NCBI RefSeq assembly: GCF_000383615.1
Contig: NZ_KB911585.1
Coordinates: forward strand, 344,939 to 408,938
Length of the DNA stretch: 64,000 bases
Source: Streptomyces canus 299MFChir4.1
GTDB taxonomy: Bacteria; Actinomycetota; Actinomycetes; Streptomycetales; Streptomycetaceae
Direction of reading: 5' to 3'
A program made the translations under genes and the position numbers. Numbering within the stretch: position 1 is the stretch's first letter; each line of letters begins with the position of its first letter. Below the pieces are notes generated by a model. That model searched no databases. It was not told the origin of the DNA and was given only the letters and a program-made list of their open reading frames with translations. This document shows, piece by piece, positions 38,547-49,136 of the stretch.

Positions 38547-39614
38547 ATGTCCTCAAGACATGTCCTCGCCGGCCTGGCGCTGGTCCCGGTGCTCACGCTG
38601 TCGGCCGCCACGTCCGCGACGGCGTACGACGGCCACCGCCCGCCCGCGCCGAAGCGGCACTTCGACCTCCAGGCCCACCGCGGCGGCCTCGGTATGACGA
38701 CCGAGGAGTCCCTGGAGGGCTTCGGGAAAGCGCTGCGTCTCGGGGTGTCCACGCTGGAGCTGGACACCCATGTCACCAAGGACCTGAAGGTCGTCGTCAA
38801 CCACGACCGGCAGATCAGCGCGGTCAAGTGCCGTGACACGGGGCCGGTGACGGCCGGCGATCCGATGTACCCGTATGTCGGCAAGTACATCAAGGATCTG
38901 ACGCTGGCTCAGATCAAGACGATGGACTGCGGCTACCAGCAGCTGCCCGGTTTCCCGGAGCAGGAGGTCGTCAAGGGCTTCCGGATGGTGGAGCTGAAGG
39001 ACGTGCTGAACCTCGTCAAGCGCTACCGCGCGAGGCAGGTCAAGCTGAACATCGAGACGAAGGTCGAGGCCGGCGCGCCCGAGCAGACCGCGCCGCGTGA
39101 GCTGTTCGTACGGCGAGTCCACGAGGAGATCCACCGCTCGGGCATCGAGCGGCAGGTCACCATCCAGTCCTTCGACTGGGGCGCGCTCAAGGAGATGCAC
39201 AAGCTGGCCCCGAAGTGGCCGCTCGTCGCGCTCACCAACTACGACTTCCTCCAGGTCGGCAAGCCCGGCGCATCGCCGTGGCTCGGCGGGGTCGACGCCG
39301 ACGACTACGGCGGCGACTTCGTCAGGGCGGCCGCCACGATCCCCGGCGTCAAAGCCCTCTCCCCCAACTACGGCTTCCCGCAGAGCGGCAAGGTCGGCGA
39401 CCCCGACTTCCGTTTCTACGCCGACCGGACGATGGTCGAGGAGGCCCACGCCCGGGGCCTGAAGGTCATCCCGTGGACCTGCGACGACCCGGCCACCGTG
39501 GAGGCACTGATGGACATGGGCGTCGACGGCGTCATCACCGACTATCCGAACCGCGTACGGCAGATCATGGCCGAGCGCGGCATGGCTCTGCCGAGGGCGT
39601 ACCGGCCGCGTTGA
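38547..39614 (+). CDS. Secreted glycerophosphodiester phosphodiesterase
   Basis: The product has 355 residues from the ATG at 38547 with a GTGAGG site. A Sec signal peptide (hydrophobic LAGLALVPVLTLSAATSATA, cleavage near AYA) directs export. The GDPD barrel shows the catalytic AHRGG (FDLQAHRGGLGMTTEESLEGF), the metal-binding ELDTHVTKD and NHDRQIS, then NIETKVE and a final PWTCDDPATVEALMDMGVDGVITDYPNRV. It releases glycerol-3-phosphate from phospholipid headgroup diesters or teichoic acids, a way to scavenge phosphate. Confidence 0.93.
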   Translation: MSSRHVLAGLALVPVLTLSAATSATAYDGHRPPAPKRHFDLQAHRGGLGMTTEESLEGFGKALRLGVSTLELDTHVTKDLKVVVNHDRQISAVKCRDTGPVTAGDPMYPYVGKYIKDLTLAQIKTMDCGYQQLPGFPEQEVVKGFRMVELKDVLNLVKRYRARQVKLNIETKVEAGAPEQTAPRELFVRRVHEEIHRSGIERQVTIQSFDWGALKEMHKLAPKWPLVALTNYDFLQVGKPGASPWLGGVDADDYGGDFVRAAATIPGVKALSPNYGFPQSGKVGDPDFRFYADRTMVEEAHARGLKVIPWTCDDPATVEALMDMGVDGVITDYPNRVRQIMAERGMALPRAYRPR

Positions 39615-39640
39615 CCGGCTCGGCCCGGAGAAAGCCGGGT

Positions 39641-40270
39641 CTACGACCGGTAGCTGATCTCGGGGAGAGCCGGCCTCGGGGCGGGACGCCGGCTCACCCA
39701 TCCGTACAGGACCACCGAGCAGACCGCCGCCAACGCGCACCAGGTCGACACGAACTCCAGCCGCCACAGCAGCCAGCACACCAGGGCGCCCGCCCCCGCC
39801 AGGACGCCGAGCGCGGTGAGCCAACGGTCGCCGGAGAACAGCAGCGCGCCGACCGTGGCGATCAGGTAGCCCGCGATGAGCAGCTCCGCCCGGGGCAGTC
39901 CGATGATGTAGGCCATGGTGTGGCCGCGGATCTCGGCCCGGACCGGGCGGGTGGCGAGGCCGTGGGCGAGGAAGGCGGCGGTCAGCGCACCCACCGCCAC
40001 GAACGCGGTCGCCCGGCGGCCGGCTCGGCGTGAGGCCGCGCACCACACGGCGAGCACGGGCAGGGCGATGACGGCCCAGGCCATGGTGGCGGCGCCGGTG
40101 CCTCCCCCGGCGTGCCAGACCTGGGCCTCGACCAGTTGGTGGACGCCGAGCAGCAAAGGCAGCGCGGCGAGGGGCAGGTCGCCGGCGCGCCGGGTGCGGA
40201 TCACGCACGCCGCCCCGACGGAGGTGATGGCCGCGCCCGCCACGAGGTCCGCTGTCGCACTCCAGCACAT
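39641..40270 (-). CDS. DUF6629-type small membrane protein
   Basis: This 209-residue protein has about seven hydrophobic segments and starts MCWSATADL, the typical opening of the DUF6629 family, with HQLVEAQVWH at about 44-53. Function is unknown. It stands alone between the convergent phosphodiesterase gene and the solute-binding protein operon. Confidence 0.78.
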   Translation of the reverse strand: MCWSATADLVAGAAITSVGAACVIRTRRAGDLPLAALPLLLGVHQLVEAQVWHAGGGTGAATMAWAVIALPVLAVWCAASRRAGRRATAFVAVGALTAAFLAHGLATRPVRAEIRGHTMAYIIGLPRAELLIAGYLIATVGALLFSGDRWLTALGVLAGAGALVCWLLWRLEFVSTWCALAAVCSVVLYGWVSRRPAPRPALPEISYRS

Positions 40271-40347
40271 GACACCACCATGTCAGGCCGGACCGTCGGC
40301 CGTCCGCTCCGCCACGACGCGAACGGGCCGGGCGGCCCGCTCGCGCG

Positions 40348-41613
40348 CTACGCGCAGATGTCCTGCGGTGGCCGGAAGGTGCGGTCGACGCCGGAGTCCG
40401 TGTTCACCTGGACGCGTACGGTCTCCAACTGCTGGAGCAGCGAGCCGAGTTGCCGCTGCGTGGGGTCGCGGAAGAACTCCAGGACCGCTCGGTGGAAGGC
40501 GTCCCGGAGTTCGGGCGGCATCACGTCGGAGGCGTCGAAGCAGAGGGTGCGGGCGCGGGAGGTGAGCAGGGAGTCGATCTCCCGCTCGACCGGTGTCGCG
40601 GAGGCCGGCGGCGACAACCCGGCCGTGTCCGGGAACAGCGGCCGTACCGCGGGATCGGCCTCCGACCACCAGAGCTCCCGCCCGGCCGGGCTCGACAGCC
40701 GTTCGACGAGTTGCTGGGCGTCCGGGTCGTCGCTGAAGACGGCGGCCATGTCACCGGCGACCTCGAAGGCGTCCCGGTACGCGGACTGCCCGTCCAGATA
40801 GCGGGCCGACGGCTCCACCGTCACGTCGTCGCCCGTGTAGACGTAGCGGATGAAGGCGCTCTGGTGCTCGTGCGTGCAGTCGAAACCGGGCGAGGCGAGC
40901 AGGCCGCGCGGCTGTCCGTCCGGGCCGGTCGAGCCCTCGAACGACGTGGTCAGGGAGTGTTCCACCGACTTCGGGGAGCGCTTGCCGAGCAGTTTCGCCC
41001 AGGTGGTCCAGGCACGTTCGACAGCCGGGTTCCGCCAGTCGAGGCGGCCGGTGGCCCACTCGGTGTAGAGGGCGGGGCCCGCCTGGTGGAGCACGAGGTC
41101 CTCGATCCAGTCGGTGCCGGGCCAGCCGGAGGTGGCCTGCGAGGCGAGGCCGACACACCAGGTGGGATGTTTGCCCGACGCGCCGCGCTTGCTCCACACG
41201 AGGCTCTTGAGGTCGACCTTCAGCGGCACCCAGTAGGTGCGCCGCCGGCTGTCCACCAGCAAGGTCGGCGCCCAGGGCGGATAGGCGCGCTCGGCGCTGG
41301 CCTCGGCGAGCGGCTTCAGCTCGTCGCGGCGGGCGTACTCGGTGAGTTCGCCGATGCTGTTGAGGACCGCCACGTCCGGCGGATCGTCGGCCTCCAGCTG
41401 TGAGACGAGCGTCTCGCGCAGCGAGCGGGTGCCCTCGTAGGTGTACGTCCGTCCGGTCCCGTCGTCCAGTTTGTCGAGGGCGGCTTCGAAGGCCTTGCCC
41501 TCCTCGCCGGTCCAGGGGCCGAGGACGACCAGCGGGTCGCGGGTGTCCGACCCGCAGCCGGGGACGAGGGCGAGCAGACACGCCACGAGGAGGACGCGCA
41601 GGACACGGCTCAT
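40348..41613 (-). CDS. Lipoprotein solute-binding protein of the PknG-like operon
   Basis: This 421-residue protein has a lipoprotein signal, VLLVACLLALVPGCGSD, with a lipobox cysteine at residue 20. The mature part has a type-1 extracellular solute-binding fold: WTGEEGKAFEAALDKL, DVAVLNSIGELTEYARRDELKPL and a late DAFHRAVLEFFRDPTQRQLGSLLQQLE. No ABC permease or ATPase is linked. Its ATG overlaps the stop of the upstream GlnX-like membrane protein (ATGA), so it most likely serves that protein as a ligand-presenting sensor, as GlnH does in mycobacteria. The ligand is unknown. Confidence 0.8.
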   Translation of the reverse strand: MSRVLRVLLVACLLALVPGCGSDTRDPLVVLGPWTGEEGKAFEAALDKLDDGTGRTYTYEGTRSLRETLVSQLEADDPPDVAVLNSIGELTEYARRDELKPLAEASAERAYPPWAPTLLVDSRRRTYWVPLKVDLKSLVWSKRGASGKHPTWCVGLASQATSGWPGTDWIEDLVLHQAGPALYTEWATGRLDWRNPAVERAWTTWAKLLGKRSPKSVEHSLTTSFEGSTGPDGQPRGLLASPGFDCTHEHQSAFIRYVYTGDDVTVEPSARYLDGQSAYRDAFEVAGDMAAVFSDDPDAQQLVERLSSPAGRELWWSEADPAVRPLFPDTAGLSPPASATPVEREIDSLLTSRARTLCFDASDVMPPELRDAFHRAVLEFFRDPTQRQLGSLLQQLETVRVQVNTDSGVDRTFRPPQDICA

Positions 41614-42827
41614 GCGACGGCTCCGGGGCGGGTGACGACAAGGTACTCGCGACGGTAGGCGTGCAGCGTGCCGGCGATCACGGCCGCGACGGCAAGGCCC
41701 GCGGGGAACACGAACGGGGCGATGCCGTCGAGGAAGGCGAGCCGCCCGTCCGCCAGGTCCTCGTCGATCCGGGCCCGCAGCGTCTCGATGGCCTGCGGCT
41801 CCGGTCCGGCGAAGGGGCTTTCCTCGGCGGCCGTCTCCGTCCGGGGCGAGGTCTTCTCGGCCAGCGCGTCCGCGACGGGGACGGTCCCGTGCTGGGCGTC
41901 CAGGGCCAGCAGGGCGTCAACCGTCAGGAACGGTACGGCGAGCAACGGCAGGGCGGCTGCCGCGAGGGGGATGCTCAGCCGGATCCGGAAGCGGTGGTGC
42001 AGGAAGGACACCGTCCGCCACAGCCCGGTGGCGAGCAGGGCGAAGGCGAGGACGGCGATCACCGCCGCGGTGATGGTGTCCGCGCCCCAGGCGGCCCGGT
42101 CGGCGAGCCGCGCGCGCAGCCGCGCCTCCAGACCGGTCACCCGGTCGACGATGGAGGTGGCGGCGGAGCCGGTCGCGGCCGGGCAGGCCGGATACGGGTT
42201 CCTGCCGGTCGCCGCGACGGGCTGCGAGCAGAGCATGCTGCGCGCGTAGGTGAGTTCGGCGTCGCGCAGGACCGGGTCGGTGGCGTGGCCCTGGGCCCGG
42301 CCGATCCAGCCGGTGTAGTCGACGACCAGCGCGGACACCACCCGTAGTTCCTGTTCCTCGGCGACGGTGAGGGCTCCGCTGCGGGTGACCTGGTTCAGGC
42401 TCTGCGTGGCGCGGGCGATCCGGGTCCGGTACCGCTCGCTGAGCCCGCTGAGCTCGGCCGCCCGGCCCTCGGCGAGGTTCCGCTCGGCCTCGCCCTGCGC
42501 GATGAGCAGCGAGGCCCGGGCGTCCGCGAGGTCGACCAGCGCGGGCGCGGCGCGCTCCCGGATGTACGCGGAGTCACCGCGCACGCCGGTGTAGGCCCAG
42601 CCGAGCGCCCCGAAGGCCACCACGGCGAGCAGCGGCAGCGCGACCAGCCGGTCCCGCAGGTAGGCACGGTTGCGGTGGCCGACGGCGGAGGGCCAGGCGT
42701 AGCGGTGGACCCGGCGGACGAGTTCGGCGGTTACGGCGGCGACGGCCCGCGTGAGGTGGAGGGTGTCCTGTGCGACGGCGCGTAAGCGACCGTCCGGAGC
42801 CAGTCGGCGACTCTCTTGCCGAGCCAT
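41610..42827 (-). CDS. GlnX-like four-helix membrane protein
   Basis: The product has 405 residues from the ATG at 42827 (AGGGA six bases upstream). Helices lie at about 60-80, 256-276, 288-308 and 370-390. Between the first two is a mainly helical extracellular domain of about 170 residues (ERAAPALVDLADARASLLIAQGEAERNL..), as in four-helix-bundle sensors. It has no kinase or transport motif. Its start overlaps the end of the PknG-like kinase gene by 97 bp, and its end overlaps the solute-binding protein start. The order and topology match the GlnX link between GlnH and PknG in mycobacteria; sequence homology is not proven here. Confidence 0.75.
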   Translation of the reverse strand: MARQESRRLAPDGRLRAVAQDTLHLTRAVAAVTAELVRRVHRYAWPSAVGHRNRAYLRDRLVALPLLAVVAFGALGWAYTGVRGDSAYIRERAAPALVDLADARASLLIAQGEAERNLAEGRAAELSGLSERYRTRIARATQSLNQVTRSGALTVAEEQELRVVSALVVDYTGWIGRAQGHATDPVLRDAELTYARSMLCSQPVAATGRNPYPACPAATGSAATSIVDRVTGLEARLRARLADRAAWGADTITAAVIAVLAFALLATGLWRTVSFLHHRFRIRLSIPLAAAALPLLAVPFLTVDALLALDAQHGTVPVADALAEKTSPRTETAAEESPFAGPEPQAIETLRARIDEDLADGRLAFLDGIAPFVFPAGLAVAAVIAGTLHAYRREYLVVTRPGAVA

Positions 42828-45586
42828 GGGCTGTCCCTGTGGTGTCGGAAGGCGAGCGGGCGGACCGCGTAGGCGCGGTCCAGGAGGATTTCGGCCACGG
42901 CCGCGTCCTCGGGGGCGGCGGAGCGGGCGGCCTGGTGGGCGAGGGTGACATAGCGACGGGACAGGTCCTCCCGCAGGCGGTGTTCGTCGGGCGGGAGGCC
43001 GAGCCGGGGGTCCGCGCCGGCGGACAGGGCCGCGAGGTCCGCCGCGCCGAGGGCGCCGCGGGCGAGGGCGCCCTGTACGGCCTCCCAGACCTCGACGGTC
43101 ATCCGGACCCTGGCCTCCTCGTCGGTGAGGCCGTGCGCGTGGAAGAGCAGGGCGAGGCGTCCCAGTACCTCGCGCAGCCGCTGCGGCGCCTCGTCGTCGT
43201 GCCCGGCCCTGCGCACGTACTCGATGCCGATCCGCACGGCCGCGGTACGCGCGGCGGTCCGGTGCCGCGAGTGCTGGGGTACGGCGTCCAGTTCGCGTAC
43301 GGCCTCCTCGCGTGCCCTTTCGCCGTCCAGCGCGAGCCGGGCCCGTGCGGCGCCGAAGGCCGCGCTGCCCAGGGACGGGTTGCGCAGCCGGACCGCCTCG
43401 TAGAAGGTCAGGGCCTCGTGCCGCCGCCCGAGGCGTTCCGCGCAGTGTCCGAGGGCCAGCTTGGGCGCGTACTCGCCGGGGATCGCCGCGTACACCCGGT
43501 CGAAGTGCCGCCAGGCCGCGCTCACTTGGCCGCGGGCGAGGGCCAGGAGTCCGTGGTGCCAGTCCAGCCGCCAGTCGTACGGGGCGCGGCGGGGGCCGAT
43601 CCGTGCCTCGGCCGCCCGCAGTTCCCGCTCGGCGGCTTCCGGTCCGTCGGCCGGGTTCCGCAACCGCAGTCGGCAGCGCAGGAAATGGACCTCCGTCGAG
43701 TCCCGCCAGTCGCCGATGTGCTGGAGCAGGGCCTCCGGGGCGGCGTCGGCGAGTCTGCTCAGCTCGGCGTGATGCTCGTCGTGGGGGTCGGGGCGCGGGA
43801 CGGGCAGGCGCTGGGCGACTTCGGCGGGCGAGGGCGGGGCGAACGGGGACGGCGCGTCGGGGGCGGTCCAGTGGGCGAGGGGTGGCGCGGAGCCGAGGGC
43901 GCCGTCGAGGGCGTAGGCCGACTGCAGGAAGAGCGGCGAGGGCTCGAAGGTCTCGGCACCGGTACGCAGCGACCTCAACTCGCGGAACACGCCCCGCAGT
44001 TGCTGCTCCATCTCCCGCGCGTCGGCGAACCGCCCCGCGGGCTCGCTGAGCGTGGCGCGGTGCAGGACACGGGCGAGCGAGAGAAGCCCGAGACCGCGGG
44101 GAACGGGGGCGGTGGCGTCGCCGGGCACCCAGGGTTCCTTGGCGGTCGCTTGCGGGACCGACTCGTTGTAGGCAACGCCCGCTGCCCGCACGGCACCTGA
44201 CGACTGAACGGGACGTGGAGAGCTGGGTTCGGCGTGCGCTTGCGGCGGCGCGGGGGCGGGTGTCCGAGAGACATCCGCAGACTCACCGAGGTTCCGTGCC
44301 GCTCGGCCACCCGGCGCCTCCCCGCCGCCCGACCCCTGGACCACCACACCCATCGCCGTCCCGCCAACCACCCCCTGAGCGCCACCCGGCACTTCCCCGC
44401 CAGCCGGCCTCTGGGCGACACCCGGCTCCTCGCCGCCCGAGTCGGACTCTACGCTCCGGTCCTCCGCCGCCCCCGAACTATGAGCCACCCCGGACGCCTC
44501 ACCGGTGCTCAGCGCCCCCTCAGCCGCTCCCCGGGCGGCACCCGATCTCCCCCCACCGCCAAAACTCTCCTCAGCCCCACGAGCGTCCCGGGCCACCGGA
44601 TTCTCGCCCGTGGCCAAAGCCTCCTCAACGATCCGTGCTCGCTCGGCGGCGAACAAGGCACCCCGGGCGGCCGGCCTCTCCTCGGTAGCCGGCGCCTCCC
44701 CCACCCCCAGCGTCTCAACATCCCCAAGGCGGCCCAAGTCCTCCGCCGACGTGCCCAGTCCGCACAGGCGGCGCAGCGTTTCGCCGAGGCTGAAGAGGTC
44801 GTCCTGTGGTCTGGACTCGCCGTACGGCCCCACGGTGGGGGCGCTGAAGCCGGCCGTGGTCATCCCCGGCGCCCCGGCCGGGCGTACGCTGCCCACGTCG
44901 ATGATCTTCGTCGTGGTGCCGTCGTGCATGACGTTGTCCGGCTTCAGGTCGCCGTAGACCTTGCCGGGCCGGTCGGCGTGCAGATACGCGAGGGCCGACA
45001 GGATCCGCACACCGTAGGCGAGCACGAACTCGTGGAAGCGCTGGTCGCCGAACTCCCCCGGGTTCAGCTTCGCCCGCGCCCGCACCTCCTCCAGCGTGAG
45101 CCCGTCCACGTACTGGAGGACGAGGAAGTCGCCGACCTCGGGGTGATGCCCGTAGTTGAAGACTCGGATGATGTCGTCATGGCCGAGGTCGACGAGGGCC
45201 CGCCGCTCCCGGGCCAGGGCACCCGCCGCGGCCGCCGCCTGATCCGGGTGCAGCATCTTGATGGCGACCTCGCGGTGGTCGACCTTGGTGTCGAGCGCGA
45301 GGTAGACCTCGCCCATGCCGCCGTAGCCGAGCGGCCGGATCAGCCGGTACTGGCCCGCGAGCAACTGCCCGGGAGGCAGGGGAAGTTCGCCGGGGTCGCT
45401 GCCGGGACCCCAGCCGCGTCCCAGCAGCGTGATCGCGGGCAGCACGGTCGGGTCGGGGTTCTCCGCGGGAAGGTCGACATGCGCGGCCCTCAGATACATC
45501 GGCTGTCCGGTGACGACGAGCGGACCGAACGACCCCTCGGATTCCGGTGGTTCACCGCACGCACTCCCGCCCCGAGCCCCCTTCAT
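42731..45586 (-). CDS. PknG-like serine/threonine kinase with TPR domain
   Basis: This 951-residue cytoplasmic protein has no membrane helix. Residues 80-280 are a kinase N-lobe and most of the C-lobe: LGYGGMGEVYLA, K110 in VAIKML, YGDLKPDNVM with catalytic D213, and IIDVGSV with D230, close to the atypical PknG loops. About 215 Gly/Ala/Glu/Pro-rich low-complexity residues (280-495) interrupt the C-lobe before LSLARVLHRATLSEPAGRF. A TPR-like helical domain follows (about 590-930). The rubredoxin domain of mycobacterial PknG is absent. It heads an operon with the GlnX-like and solute-binding proteins. The annotated ATG lies only one base after GAGGAGG, so a slightly later start is possible. 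Confidence 0.85.
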   Translation of the reverse strand: MKGARGGSACGEPPESEGSFGPLVVTGQPMYLRAAHVDLPAENPDPTVLPAITLLGRGWGPGSDPGELPLPPGQLLAGQYRLIRPLGYGGMGEVYLALDTKVDHREVAIKMLHPDQAAAAAGALARERRALVDLGHDDIIRVFNYGHHPEVGDFLVLQYVDGLTLEEVRARAKLNPGEFGDQRFHEFVLAYGVRILSALAYLHADRPGKVYGDLKPDNVMHDGTTTKIIDVGSVRPAGAPGMTTAGFSAPTVGPYGESRPQDDLFSLGETLRRLCGLGTSAEDLGRLGDVETLGVGEAPATEERPAARGALFAAERARIVEEALATGENPVARDARGAEESFGGGGRSGAARGAAEGALSTGEASGVAHSSGAAEDRSVESDSGGEEPGVAQRPAGGEVPGGAQGVVGGTAMGVVVQGSGGGEAPGGRAARNLGESADVSRTPAPAPPQAHAEPSSPRPVQSSGAVRAAGVAYNESVPQATAKEPWVPGDATAPVPRGLGLLSLARVLHRATLSEPAGRFADAREMEQQLRGVFRELRSLRTGAETFEPSPLFLQSAYALDGALGSAPPLAHWTAPDAPSPFAPPSPAEVAQRLPVPRPDPHDEHHAELSRLADAAPEALLQHIGDWRDSTEVHFLRCRLRLRNPADGPEAAERELRAAEARIGPRRAPYDWRLDWHHGLLALARGQVSAAWRHFDRVYAAIPGEYAPKLALGHCAERLGRRHEALTFYEAVRLRNPSLGSAAFGAARARLALDGERAREEAVRELDAVPQHSRHRTAARTAAVRIGIEYVRRAGHDDEAPQRLREVLGRLALLFHAHGLTDEEARVRMTVEVWEAVQGALARGALGAADLAALSAGADPRLGLPPDEHRLREDLSRRYVTLAHQAARSAAPEDAAVAEILLDRAYAVRPLAFRHHRDSPWLGKRVADWLRTVAYAPSHRTPSTSRGPSPP
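44102..44750 (-). other. Low-complexity insert coding region inside the kinase C-lobe
   Basis: This stretch encodes about 215 residues dominated by Gly, Ala, Glu and Pro, with recurring short motifs such as GEVPGGAQG, GEAPGG and EEPGVAQ. The plus strand is strikingly C-rich. It separates the helix around LFSLGETLRRLCG from the C-terminal kinase helices. It is probably a flexible loop that expanded by slippage. Confidence 0.7.
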
Positions 45587-45781
45587 GCCTCCTCAGAATA
45601 GGGCCAGGTGCCGGGATCGACCCCGTGCGTTCCCCCGAGAAGCGCGATGCCGCCGGGTTCCGGCCGCGCGACAAGCCGGGATCGACGTCCCCCACGGACC
45701 GACACCCCTCTAGAGTGAGGGGTTCCTGTCAGAAGAGTCCGGACCGCAGCCGTCCTGGCCAGCAGCGGTGAAGGAGACACG

Positions 45782-47944
45782 GTGACCCTGCGCGAGAACG
45801 ATCCGGAGTCCGTCGGCGGCTACCGGATCGAATCGCGGATCGGGACCGGCGGCATGGGAGTCGTCTATCTCGGCAGATCGGCCTCGGGGCGGGCCGTCGC
45901 GGTGAAGGTCGTCCACACGCGGTACGCCGACAACCCCGAGTTCCGGGCGAGGTTCCGGCAGGAGATCGCCGCCGCCCGCAGGGTCAGCGGCGCGTTCACG
46001 GCGCCGGTCGTGGACGCGGACCCGGAGGCGGCACGGCCGTGGATGGCCACCGCGTTCGTCCCGGGCCGCACCCTCGCGGAACTGGTCGACGAGTCGGGAC
46101 CGCTGGACTGGCCCGCGCTGCGGCGGCTCGGCACCGAACTCGCCGAGGCACTGCGGGAGATCCACCGCGCCGAGGTCGTGCACCGGGACCTCAAGCCGAG
46201 CAATGTGCTGCTGCTGGAGAGCGAGGGCGACGACGGGGCCGTACGCGTCATCGACTTCGGTATCTCGCGCGCGGCCGACAGCGATGTCCGCACCCAGACC
46301 GGCATGGTGATGGGCTCGCCGCCCTTCATGGCGCCGGAGCAGTTCAGCCGCCCGCACGAGGTCGGCCCCGCGGTGGACGTCTTCTCGCTGGGCGCGGTGC
46401 TGGTGTACGCGGCCACCGGGCACAGCCCCTTCGAGGCGGAGAACGCCTACCTGGCCGCGTACAACACCGTGCACGGTGAGCCGCGGCTCCGTGAACTGCC
46501 TGAGCAGTTGCGGCCGTTGATCTCGCGCTGCCTGGCGAAGGAACCCGCGGACCGGCCGGCGTCGGGCCAGGTCCTGGAGCTGCTGGCGGGGCTTCCGGAG
46601 GAACTGCCCGAGGGGCGACCGGCCGAAGAACCGGTCCCGGCGCCGCAGTTCCCTTCGACGGACATGGTGACCTCGCAGCTCGTCGACAGCGGGCCGGTCC
46701 GGCGCGGGCGCCGCGGGCGGAGACTGTGGGCCGCCGTCGCCGCCGTGGCACTCCTCGGCGGGGCGGGGGCGGCCGCGGTCGCCGTGGTGGACGACCAACC
46801 GGCGAGCACGGTCGACGAGTTCGACGCCCTCGCTCCGCGGACGACGCCCGGCGGGACGGCACCGGCGGGCTGGCGACCCTGGCACAACGCCCTCGGGTCG
46901 GACGGGAAGGACCAGCCGACGGGCGTCGGTCCGTCGTGCACCCCGGACGCGCTCGGCGTGTTCTGCGCCTCCGAGCAGGTCGCCCTGACGCGGCTGAACC
47001 CGGCGACGGGCAACGTGGACTGGACGAAGTCCATGAGCCGCAAGCAGGTCAGCAGCTTCTCGGTGCGCGAACCGCTCGTCCATGACGGCGTGGTGTTCGT
47101 GTACAGCGCGGACCGCTCGCAGGGCGTCGACGCCTACGATGCGAGGACCGGCGAGCGGCTGTGGCAACTGAAGGGTCCGCTCGGCCAGTTCGAGTTTCTG
47201 GGCGGAGTGCTGCTCGTCCGTCTTGACCAGCTCGGCTCCTCCGACACGGCACGCTATGCGGCCTACGCGCCGCGCACGGGCAAGGAGTTGTGGCGGCGCG
47301 AGCTGACCGCCACCTCGCCGAGCCCCTTCTACGAAGGTCCCGAGGGCACGCTCTACGCCGATCTGCGCGGCGGCGAGGGCGGCATCGCCCGCCTCGACGC
47401 GCGGACCGGCAGGACCCTGGGCCGTGTCGACGCGCCGAAGGGCGACCTGTGGCTGGCGACGGTCCACGACGGCACCGCCTACTACGCGCGCTGGGAGGAC
47501 GACTCCGGTGTGTCCGCCGCCTTCTTCGTCCAGGACCTCGGCAGCGGGAAGACCCGCCGGATCGACTTCCCCTGGAGCGTGGAGCCCGAGGCGCCGCCGC
47601 TGGTGCAGGGCGACACCATGTACATCTTCGACTACGGCAACGAGACCCTGCTCGCCCTCGATGTGAAGCACGGCAAGCCGCTGTGGTCCAGCTCGCGCGA
47701 CCTGCGCGTCTTCAGCGAACCGGCCTACCACACGGGCCGGTTGTACGTGACGATGCCGGACACGAGCATCGTGGCCCTCGACCCGGGGACGGGCAAGGAG
47801 ATCGGCCGTACCGCCCCGTCCTTCGACACGGGCGGCCGGTCCTTCCAGGAACTGTCGCCGAGTTCGGTGCCGCCGCTGCTGGTGGGGAAGGTGCTGTACG
47901 GAGTCAGCGGCCCGGGGATCTTCTCGGTGGCCGACGTCACCTGA
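45782..47944 (+). CDS. Receptor serine/threonine kinase with PQQ beta-propeller
   Basis: The product has 720 residues from a GTG at 45782 (AAGGAG upstream). The kinase is canonical: IGTGGMGVVYLG, K42, HRDLKPSN with D136, DFG at 158-160, and GSPPFMAPEQ. A single membrane helix (about 322-342) leads to an extracellular domain of PQQ_2-type propeller blades (LNPATGNVDWTKS, YDARTGERLWQL, YAPRTGKELWRREL, LDARTGRTLGRV, LDVKHGKPLWSS, LDPGTGKEIGR). Such propellers bind small ligands or cell-wall parts. It is divergent from the PknG-like operon, 195 bp away, and ends at a shared terminator. Confidence 0.93.
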   Translation: MTLRENDPESVGGYRIESRIGTGGMGVVYLGRSASGRAVAVKVVHTRYADNPEFRARFRQEIAAARRVSGAFTAPVVDADPEAARPWMATAFVPGRTLAELVDESGPLDWPALRRLGTELAEALREIHRAEVVHRDLKPSNVLLLESEGDDGAVRVIDFGISRAADSDVRTQTGMVMGSPPFMAPEQFSRPHEVGPAVDVFSLGAVLVYAATGHSPFEAENAYLAAYNTVHGEPRLRELPEQLRPLISRCLAKEPADRPASGQVLELLAGLPEELPEGRPAEEPVPAPQFPSTDMVTSQLVDSGPVRRGRRGRRLWAAVAAVALLGGAGAAAVAVVDDQPASTVDEFDALAPRTTPGGTAPAGWRPWHNALGSDGKDQPTGVGPSCTPDALGVFCASEQVALTRLNPATGNVDWTKSMSRKQVSSFSVREPLVHDGVVFVYSADRSQGVDAYDARTGERLWQLKGPLGQFEFLGGVLLVRLDQLGSSDTARYAAYAPRTGKELWRRELTATSPSPFYEGPEGTLYADLRGGEGGIARLDARTGRTLGRVDAPKGDLWLATVHDGTAYYARWEDDSGVSAAFFVQDLGSGKTRRIDFPWSVEPEAPPLVQGDTMYIFDYGNETLLALDVKHGKPLWSSSRDLRVFSEPAYHTGRLYVTMPDTSIVALDPGTGKEIGRTAPSFDTGGRSFQELSPSSVPPLLVGKVLYGVSGPGIFSVADVT

Positions 47945-47956
47945 GCCGGTGCGCAC

Positions 47957-47986
47957 GGTGGGCCCGGCCCGAGGACCGGGCCCACC
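47957..47986. terminator. Bidirectional terminator between receptor kinase and S1 protease
   Basis: GGTGGGCCCGG and CCGGGCCCACC are perfect 11-bp arms around an eight-base loop, located in the 49-bp gap between two convergent genes. Confidence 0.82.
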
Positions 47987-47993
47987 CGACCGC

Positions 47994-49136
47994 TCAGGCG
48001 GTGTGCAGGGTCAGGCCGTACCGGTTGAGGATCTCGTTGACGGGCTGGAACCAGGTCTCGCCGCCGCTGGAGCAGTTGCCCCAGCCACCGGAGGTGACGC
48101 CCTGGGCCTGGTCACCGCTGATGAACGAGCCGCCGGAGTCGCCCGGTTCGGCGCAGACATTGGTCTTGGTCATCTGGTGCACCGCGCCCTGGCTGTAGTT
48201 GACGGTCTCGTTCATGGCGAGGACGGTGCCGCAGTGCCAGTGGGTGGTCGAGCCCGAGCGGCAGATCGAGGCGCCGACGGGTGCCACGTTCGAGCCGCGC
48301 ACGAGCTGGTCGGAGACGGTGCCCCAGCCGAGCACGACCGGGACGGTCCACCAGCCGCTGCCCACGTTGACCCAGGCGTAGTCGTTGTCCGGGAAGGACG
48401 AACCCTGGAAGTTGCCGACGTAGCTGCGGTCCCAGCCGTAGACGCTGCCGGTGTGCTGGTCGCAGTGGCCGGCCGTGACGAAGCCGCCGTAGACCGAGAA
48501 GCCGATGGAACAGCGGACGTTGCCGGTGTAGAAGGGGTCGCCGCCGACGGTTCCGGCGGCGAAGGTGGTCGGCGCGGCGGCCACCTCGCGCACGGTGACG
48601 GGACCCGCCTTCCGGGCGCGGGCGACGAACGTCTGGACATCGTTGTCACGCTGTCGGCCGCTGACGACGTTCACCACGACCGTGCTGGCCTTGGGGTCGA
48701 CGTGCCAGCTGCTGACGGCGTCCGGTGCGGGGAGGGCGTCGAGCCGGGCCTGGGTGGCGGAGAGTTCCCGGGCGCTGTGGGCGACGGTGCGGACCGTGGC
48801 GCCGGTGGCGCGTATCTCGCGCAGGGCGGTGGCGGAGGTGCCGGGGGTGACGGCGACGGTCAGCGTGCCCTTGGCGGCGTCGAACCAGGAGCCGCCGAAG
48901 GACGTGCCCGCGGCGCGGCGGACCTCGGGCTGAAGAGCCGTGGCCTTCCGCTCGGCGGCGAGCCGCGCGACGGCCTGCTCGGGCGAGAGGCCGAAGTCCC
49001 GCTGCATCGCGGTGAGGAGACCGGCGGAGGCGGGCTGCTTCGCGTCGGCGGCGGCGGGGACCGTGCCCGCGGTCGCGCCGACACCGAGCAGGAGCAGCAC
49101 GGCGAGGCCCGCGCGCATGATTCGGGTGCGTCTCAT
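47994..49136 (-). CDS. Secreted streptogrisin-type S1 serine protease precursor
   Basis: This 380-residue protein has a Sec signal (GLAVLLLLGVGATAGTVPAAADA) and a prodomain of about 160 residues containing the alpha-lytic-protease prodomain pattern (WFDAAKGTLTVAVT, SSWHVDPKASTVVVNV). The mature chymotrypsin fold has the triad in GGFVTAGHC (His), DNDYAWV (Asp) and GDSGGS (Ser), plus paired cysteines (CSIG..GHC, CRSG..HCG, CAEPGD..NC). It degrades external protein. The palindrome at 49177, about 41 bp upstream, suggests control by a LacI-family regulator. Confidence 0.93.
   Translation of the reverse strand: MRRTRIMRAGLAVLLLLGVGATAGTVPAAADAKQPASAGLLTAMQRDFGLSPEQAVARLAAERKATALQPEVRRAAGTSFGGSWFDAAKGTLTVAVTPGTSATALREIRATGATVRTVAHSARELSATQARLDALPAPDAVSSWHVDPKASTVVVNVVSGRQRDNDVQTFVARARKAGPVTVREVAAAPTTFAAGTVGGDPFYTGNVRCSIGFSVYGGFVTAGHCDQHTGSVYGWDRSYVGNFQGSSFPDNDYAWVNVGSGWWTVPVVLGWGTVSDQLVRGSNVAPVGASICRSGSTTHWHCGTVLAMNETVNYSQGAVHQMTKTNVCAEPGDSGGSFISGDQAQGVTSGGWGNCSSGGETWFQPVNEILNRYGLTLHTA

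Follow-up and report, generated by a model that had tools for sequence, protein, structure and literature searches.

A second PknG-type kinase operon in Streptomyces canus, with a shortened GlnX and a family-1 binding lipoprotein: a candidate carbohydrate-sensing relay

Three overlapping genes for a kinase, a membrane protein and a lipoprotein

The window analysed here is a 64,000 bp stretch of the genome of Streptomyces canus 299MFChir4.1. Its minus strand carries three genes, referred to as K, M and L, that had been described from the letters alone (the "sequence-only reading") as overlapping and forming one operon, and the ORF coordinates agree with that description. The features of the locus are:

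42731..45586, minus strand: gene of kinase K, 951 amino acids, a PknG-type Ser/Thr kinase with a C-terminal TPR domain and without rubredoxin
45588..45594, minus strand: strong ribosome-binding site of the K gene, GAGGAGG (identified by eye)
44774..45349, minus strand: N-lobe and catalytic core of K, residues 80-271
44135..44764, minus strand: low-complexity insert of K, about residues 275-484 (from the translation and a gap in the alignment to PknG)
42857..43831, minus strand: PknG_TPR domain of K, residues 586-910 (Pfam)
42731..42827, minus strand: overlap of the K and M genes, 97 bp
41610..42827, minus strand: gene of membrane protein M, 405 amino acids, GlnX-like, with four transmembrane helices (by eye)
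42084..42578, minus strand: extracellular four-helix-bundle domain of M, residues 84-248 (predicted model)
41610..41613, minus strand: overlap of the M and L genes, 4 bp
40348..41613, minus strand: gene of lipoprotein L, 421 amino acids, a family-1 solute-binding protein

The 97 bp overlap recurs in the five nearest relatives (L040-L044), and the K and M genes are likely translationally coupled through it. No promoter- or terminator-like sites were found at positions 40100-46000, and no RNA family reached the gathering threshold at positions 39000-48000. A DUF6629 gene (39641-40270; 289 bits) lies directly downstream of L on the same strand. Divergent from the operon, at a distance of 195 bp, is a gene for another Ser/Thr kinase, which carries a PQQ-repeat domain (45782-47944); a kinase match in the equivalent place and orientation was detected at L041, L045, L084 and L086.

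K is a paralogue of PknG in a genome that also encodes the canonical chain

K matches both Pkinase and PknG_TPR above the curated Pfam cut-offs (for PknG_TPR, 129.2 bits against a cut-off of 27). Among solved structures, the closest relatives of K are the PknG proteins of M. tuberculosis (E 1.5e-50) and C. glutamicum. The alignment of K to PknG ends at residue 274 and restarts at 484-503. Near relatives in the window's clade differ in the distance between the DFG motif and the last kinase helices, which can be as short as about 93 or as long as several hundred residues, with some values approximate. All four catalytic residues are kept in K, namely Lys, Asp, Asn and the DFG Asp (the motif reads D-V-G here). 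The same residues are present in almost every operon kinase aligned (Lys in 99, catalytic Asp in 101, Asn in 101 and DFG Asp in 102 of 103 rows, the rest being mostly gaps); the alignment omits short kinases, and up to 9 of its rows are doubled, as 9 genomes are in both locus sets.

The sequence-only reading had K without rubredoxin. Pfam indeed gave no PknG_rubred (PF16919) match, and no CxxC pair occurs ahead of the kinase domain. Rubredoxin scored over the cut-off in 4 of the 6 operon-type kinases scanned (from Kutzneria, Micromonospora, Streptosporangium and a Pseudonocardiales genome). Since other kinases of the same system retain the domain, its loss here is real but secondary. The PknG of corynebacteria also lacks rubredoxin (PMC6069109). 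Among the rows viewed, we saw by eye no motif ahead of the kinase domain that canonical PknG shares.

A tree of 67 kinases, constructed with a quick method, groups the 12 rows of canonical PknG in a single clade with a support of 100. The operon kinases, K of the window among them, fall outside this clade, and K is, as judged from sequence, a paralogue of PknG and not an orthologue. The root and depth of the tree are uncertain because the branches are long.

Another PknG, this one with a rubredoxin domain, is encoded in the same genome (10.5 Mb, 116 contigs). Its operon (L009, 2375-13462) encodes, in order, a GlnX-like protein, a family-3 GlnH-type binding protein, a coiled-coil protein, PknG, PP2C, a vWA protein and an FHA protein. 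We sampled 20 canonical loci across the order, taken from 30 genomes with a PknG_TPR match, and found homologues of GlnX, GlnH, the coiled-coil protein, PknG and PP2C in all of them. The vWA gene was detected in 6 of the 20 and the FHA gene in one, and many of the stretches end soon after PP2C. Given that a canonical GlnX-GlnH-PknG operon is also in the genome, K-M-L is a second, paralogous PknG-type chain. That the system is distinct from GlnH-GlnX-PknG, as had been suggested, is upheld by the presence of both in one genome and by a binding protein of another family. The analogy drawn between the two can be upgraded to homology, with M as a GlnX homologue and K as a PknG paralogue.

M is a shortened GlnX

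M had no match above any Pfam cut-off, and searches of solved structures with the single sequences of M and L gave nothing under E 0.27. The relationship to GlnX emerged from profiles. A profile of 41 M proteins matched a profile of 21 canonical GlnX proteins with a probability of 97.9 over 220 columns, versus 20.1 over 47 columns for the control in which the GlnX profile was reversed, which backs the GlnX likeness proposed in the sequence-only reading. A direct search with the M profile matched canonical GlnX in only 1 of the 20 canonical loci (L210, E 2.5e-8). On this profile evidence, M is homologous to GlnX, and it appears to be a shortened form of it.

By eye, M has four long hydrophobic helices. 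Outside the membrane, the AlphaFold model of M (mean pLDDT 86.1) clearly shows one four-helix bundle and, as a second part, no more than about 60 residues. In this model, the first transmembrane segment and the first helix of the bundle form a single 67-residue helix. The first helix in the published model of GlnX is of equal length, 67 residues (PMC9769921).

The top solved match of the M bundle is the sensor domain of LytS in its complex with XylFII (5xsj_L; Z 15.3, rmsd 2.0 Å, 119 residues). Within 1-1.5 Z of it are the ligand-binding domains of the chemoreceptors PcaY_PP (14.9) and MCP2201 (14.0). Helical bundles readily match one another, and Foldseek alone found no match to the M model at E ≤ 0.001; the four-helix match stood out only in a second structural comparison. 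Mostly helical models that match nothing clearly still tend to reach a best Z of 14, a value that 15.3 barely exceeds. Given this and the empty Foldseek result, the predicted likeness of the M bundle to LytS is suggestive only.

L is a family-1 binding protein related to those of sugar importers

L has a lipobox-like V17-P-G-C20 (by eye). Its SBP_bac_1 score of 23.8 bits is just below the Pfam cut-off of 26. The membership of L in family 1 is nevertheless secured, because 5 of the 6 operon-linked relatives scanned pass this cut-off and because of the predicted fold. Pfam gave no SBP_bac_3 match, and comparison with canonical GlnH profiles returned a probability of 1.6, so no sequence relation to GlnH was detectable. 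The assignment to family 1 rather than to the family 3 of GlnH thus stands, but its original wording as two different folds was wrong, as "type-1" and "type-3" denote Pfam families within one superfamily that share the same tertiary structure (PMC9769921).

The predicted model of L (mean pLDDT 90.6) matches AcbH with a Z of 34.2 and an rmsd of 2.8 Å over 351 residues, and also matches binding proteins for xylo-oligosaccharide, glucose and chitin-oligosaccharide. Relatives of L on plasmids were found in 33 records, with 25-29% identity among the 20 listed. At all seven of the loci examined from these 33 records, the relative is an ABC importer protein accompanied by permeases, and the cluster includes a GH13, alpha-amylase or alpha-glucosidase gene. 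We take these to be AglE-type alpha-glucoside ABC importers. The only other L relative found in the genome of S. canus is likewise an importer protein with its permease. By analogy with importer relatives that are about 25-29% identical to L, a sugar, which the sequence-only reading had raised as a possibility, is favoured as the ligand.

Among operon-type L proteins (n = 56), 23 positions with a conservation of 90% or more carry a residue that all 8 importer relatives compared also have. Other positions separate the two groups: C358 and C420 are both present in 56/56 operon-type proteins and in 0/8 importer relatives, and W202 (55/56) and W205 (53/56) are both absent from the 8 importer relatives. 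Given the 23 shared positions on one side and C358, C420, W202 and W205 on the other, the conserved core of L looks largely inherited, with some structure specific to the operon. The out-of-genus L proteins of L257 and L259 have the late terminal Cys but no C358, and therefore the cysteine signature is not universal. Some L relatives were flagged as having one TGA inside; in the flagged rows that could be checked, this stop simply terminates the gene and the alignment extends beyond it, and the flags were dismissed.

The sequence-only reading had presented L as unpaired. We looked for permeases using profiles built from 8 importer loci, which are positive by construction; L258, with two permeases after L on the same strand, is an independent positive. 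The same profiles had no match in the window. At the best 80 of at least 491 relatives in named genomes, within up to 10 kb on each side, permease-like genes occurred at only 2 loci, in both cases on the strand opposite to L, and L accordingly appears unpaired. Among 40 loci of the genus, opposite-strand permeases were present at 2. L is thus related to the binding proteins of AglE-type importers (about 25-29% identity) and differs from them in that no permease partner was seen, and in C358 and C420, which are confined to the operon type among the proteins compared.

The operon is widely conserved and often includes a protease and a vWA protein

M matches were found 69 times in 246 genomes of the genus. 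We sampled 40 regions among the 68 other genomes with an M match and detected L around all 40 and K around 38; the two without a kinase match are L056 and L063, the latter at a contig end. Of the best 80 (out of at least 491) L relatives in named genomes, 65 are at loci that extend 7 kb or more upstream of L, and the remaining 15 were set aside. M adjoins L at 63 of these 65 loci and a same-strand K is present at 64, so the order of the three genes extends well beyond close kin. L-M-K linkage was also seen in Amycolatopsis, Kutzneria, Crossiella, Streptosporangium and Micromonospora. At one locus (L143), L is present and M and K are absent.

Many of these loci encode two further proteins, defined here as T and V. 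Within the same 65 loci (from the best 80 of at least 491), T was detected in 49, including 7 in which it is fused to K, and V in 42. T is a trypsin-like protease with a coiled-coil tail, and a Trypsin_2 domain was identified where T was scanned. Its catalytic residues are nearly always present (His in 48, Asp in 49 and Ser in 49 of 50), and by eye we saw no signal peptide. The tail is homologous to the coiled-coil protein of the canonical operon (profile probability 96.9). V is a vWA protein that is homologous to the canonical vWA protein, with 25-42% identity. The metal-site motif of V is only partly preserved (first Asp in 47/51, first Ser in 28/51, Thr in 30/51), and the two vWA Asp residues are present in 47/51 and 49/51. 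At L097 (Streptomyces huasconensis), the operon looks either broken or affected by sequence errors, because T and K match in several pieces and frames.

At E ≤ 1e-75, a threshold chosen after the scores of a class-wide sample had shown a gap from 308.5 down to 235.5 bits, the L profile matched 97 of 242 genomes of the genus; this is an upper figure because the threshold sometimes admits importers. Of the 197 genomes in the class-wide sample, 10 scored above 300 bits, and three of these 10 belong to other genera. G315, outside the genus, encodes a coiled-coil protein, K, V, M and L, and no trypsin domain was detected there. G366, also outside the genus, has M and L and no kinase within 15 kb. 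The high-scoring L of G299, a third out-of-genus genome, was rejected as an operon-linked protein, as two same-strand permeases identify it as an importer protein.

The clade of the window has a reduced form of the operon

M proteins with at least 69% identity to that of the window occur in 15 of the 246 genomes, including that of S. canus itself. Neither T nor V was found at the named loci of this clade that have enough upstream DNA (L084, L086-L092 and L095). Within the S. canus genome, V matches only in the canonical operon and T only at the tail of the canonical coiled-coil protein. A search of the window for remnants of T or V gave a best tblastn E of 0.17.

The three remaining genes are under constraint. 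In 18 of 18 gene comparisons (K, M and L against six relatives), dN/dS is 0.16-0.38, and a shifted frame of L, examined in one pair (L041), has more non-synonymous than synonymous change. Because the genes are conserved, collinear and constrained in this way, the association of K, M and L is not due to chance. As all three evolve under constraint, the K-M-L operon of this clade looks like a working reduced form and not a relic.

Relation to known systems

Like GlnH-GlnX-PknG of mycobacteria and corynebacteria, as outlined in PMC6069109 and PMC9769921, K-M-L combines a TPR kinase, a four-transmembrane helical transmitter and a binding lipoprotein in one operon. It differs from that chain in that L belongs to family 1 and GlnH to family 3, in that the second of the two extracellular four-helix bundles of GlnX appears shortened in M, and, relative to the rubredoxin-bearing PknG proteins, in the missing rubredoxin of the window's clade, as in corynebacteria. 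LytS has a histidine kinase of its own, whereas K is a separate Ser/Thr kinase. Otherwise, K-M-L is like the D-xylose sensor XylFII-LytS (PDB 5xsj), in which a sugar-binding protein docks on a membrane sensor with a four-helix bundle (PMC9769921), as L would on M. The XylFII-LytS complex served to model GlnH on GlnX (PMC9769921).

Ser/Thr kinases linked to binding proteins are mentioned in PMC6069109, namely SGR_4432, SCO1468 and the fused MSMEG_1200. SGR_4432 and SCO1468 resemble K-M-L in associating a kinase with a binding protein in streptomycetes, and they may be members of the same family. Neither name occurs in another paper in the open-access literature searched. Neighbouring kinase, PP2C and vWA genes of actinobacteria have been described, as have conflict systems that bear peptidases, and one system includes a transmembrane protein with an extracellular periplasmic-binding-protein domain (PMC7159879); the words PknG and solute-binding are absent from the main text of that paper. 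We found no description of the K-M-L or T-K-V-M-L operon in titles and abstracts of the open-access literature, and as far as this literature shows, the operon is undescribed.

A proposed carbohydrate-sensing relay and its alternatives

We consider it fairly probable that K-M-L is an extracellular carbohydrate-sensing PknG relay that operates in parallel with the canonical chain. The ligand, contacts, signal direction and substrate are those that we infer by homology to GlnH-GlnX-PknG and by analogy with XylFII-LytS. In this proposal, membrane-anchored L would bind an extracellular carbohydrate, for which an alpha-glucoside or a comparable oligosaccharide is the likeliest candidate. Once loaded, L would dock onto, or press, the four-helix bundle of M, and M would signal through the membrane to the TPR domain of cytosolic K. 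K would then phosphorylate a cytosolic substrate, perhaps a GarA-type FHA protein. The fuller form in relatives would add two cytosolic partners, T and V, of which T is probably a partner or target; in some species, T is fused to K.

An extension of the proposed relay is conceivable, and we offer it tentatively. T-K-V-M-L may constitute a new signalling class in which an external carbohydrate acts through L and M on K and V and, by way of these, on T as an intracellular protease, and which has been pared down to a kinase relay in the window's clade. As a paralogue of the PknG operon that senses amino acids, it would be set apart from the latter by its binding protein and protease.

It is rather unlikely that T-K-V-M-L is instead a conflict or stress relay, in which a saccharide cue (wall fragments, or damage by a competitor or phage) would gate protease T via K and V, with the window's clade having kept the sensing half. 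The retention of the catalytic His, Asp and Ser in nearly all T proteins and of the two vWA Asp residues in most V proteins is consistent with this, and conflict systems of actinobacteria repeatedly include kinases, vWA proteins and trypsin-like peptidases (PMC7159879). However, the PADLOC 2.0.0 matches were limited to generic kinase domains (PD-T4-6, mad6, MkoA) and one weak hit to an RT protease, and T and V are absent from the window's clade, yet K, M and L are under purifying selection there.

We regard it as improbable that L simply serves an ABC sugar importer with permeases encoded elsewhere and that its link to the kinase is secondary. Its relatives are importer proteins, the importer protein of G299 scores as high as operon-linked L, and our permease search covered the loci, up to 10 kb each side. 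The conserved linkage of L, however, is with M and K and not with permeases. C358 and C420 are found in 56/56 operon-type proteins versus 0/8 importer relatives, and L is therefore under constraints of its own, with the caveat that two out-of-genus operon-type L proteins are without C358.

Still less probable is a duplication of function, with K-M-L responding to the same amino-acid cue as the canonical chain and giving the same GarA output. The kinase and the transmitter are homologous to the canonical ones, but L belongs to a different binding-protein family than GlnH, and by eye no canonical PknG motif appears in the pre-kinase region of K in the rows viewed. Very improbable, finally, is a decaying relic left after the loss of T, V and rubredoxin, which the missing parts and the low-complexity insert in K might suggest but which is at odds with a dN/dS of 0.16-0.38 in 18/18 comparisons, against the shifted L frame in one pair, and with four intact catalytic residues.

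The stimuli of bacterial Ser/Thr kinases have been named an outstanding question, and GlnH-GlnX-PknG is a case in which a binding protein drives such a kinase (PMC6069109). If K-M-L is a carbohydrate-sensing relay, it would be a natural paralogue of that chain with another sensor, and the GlnX-PknG chain would be modular. The pair of chains gives a direct test of the coupling of M to the TPR domain. A protease, such as the fuller operon encodes, would not be expected in a nutrient sensor. If the proposed relay holds, carbon sensing would be tied to protein phosphorylation in antibiotic producers.
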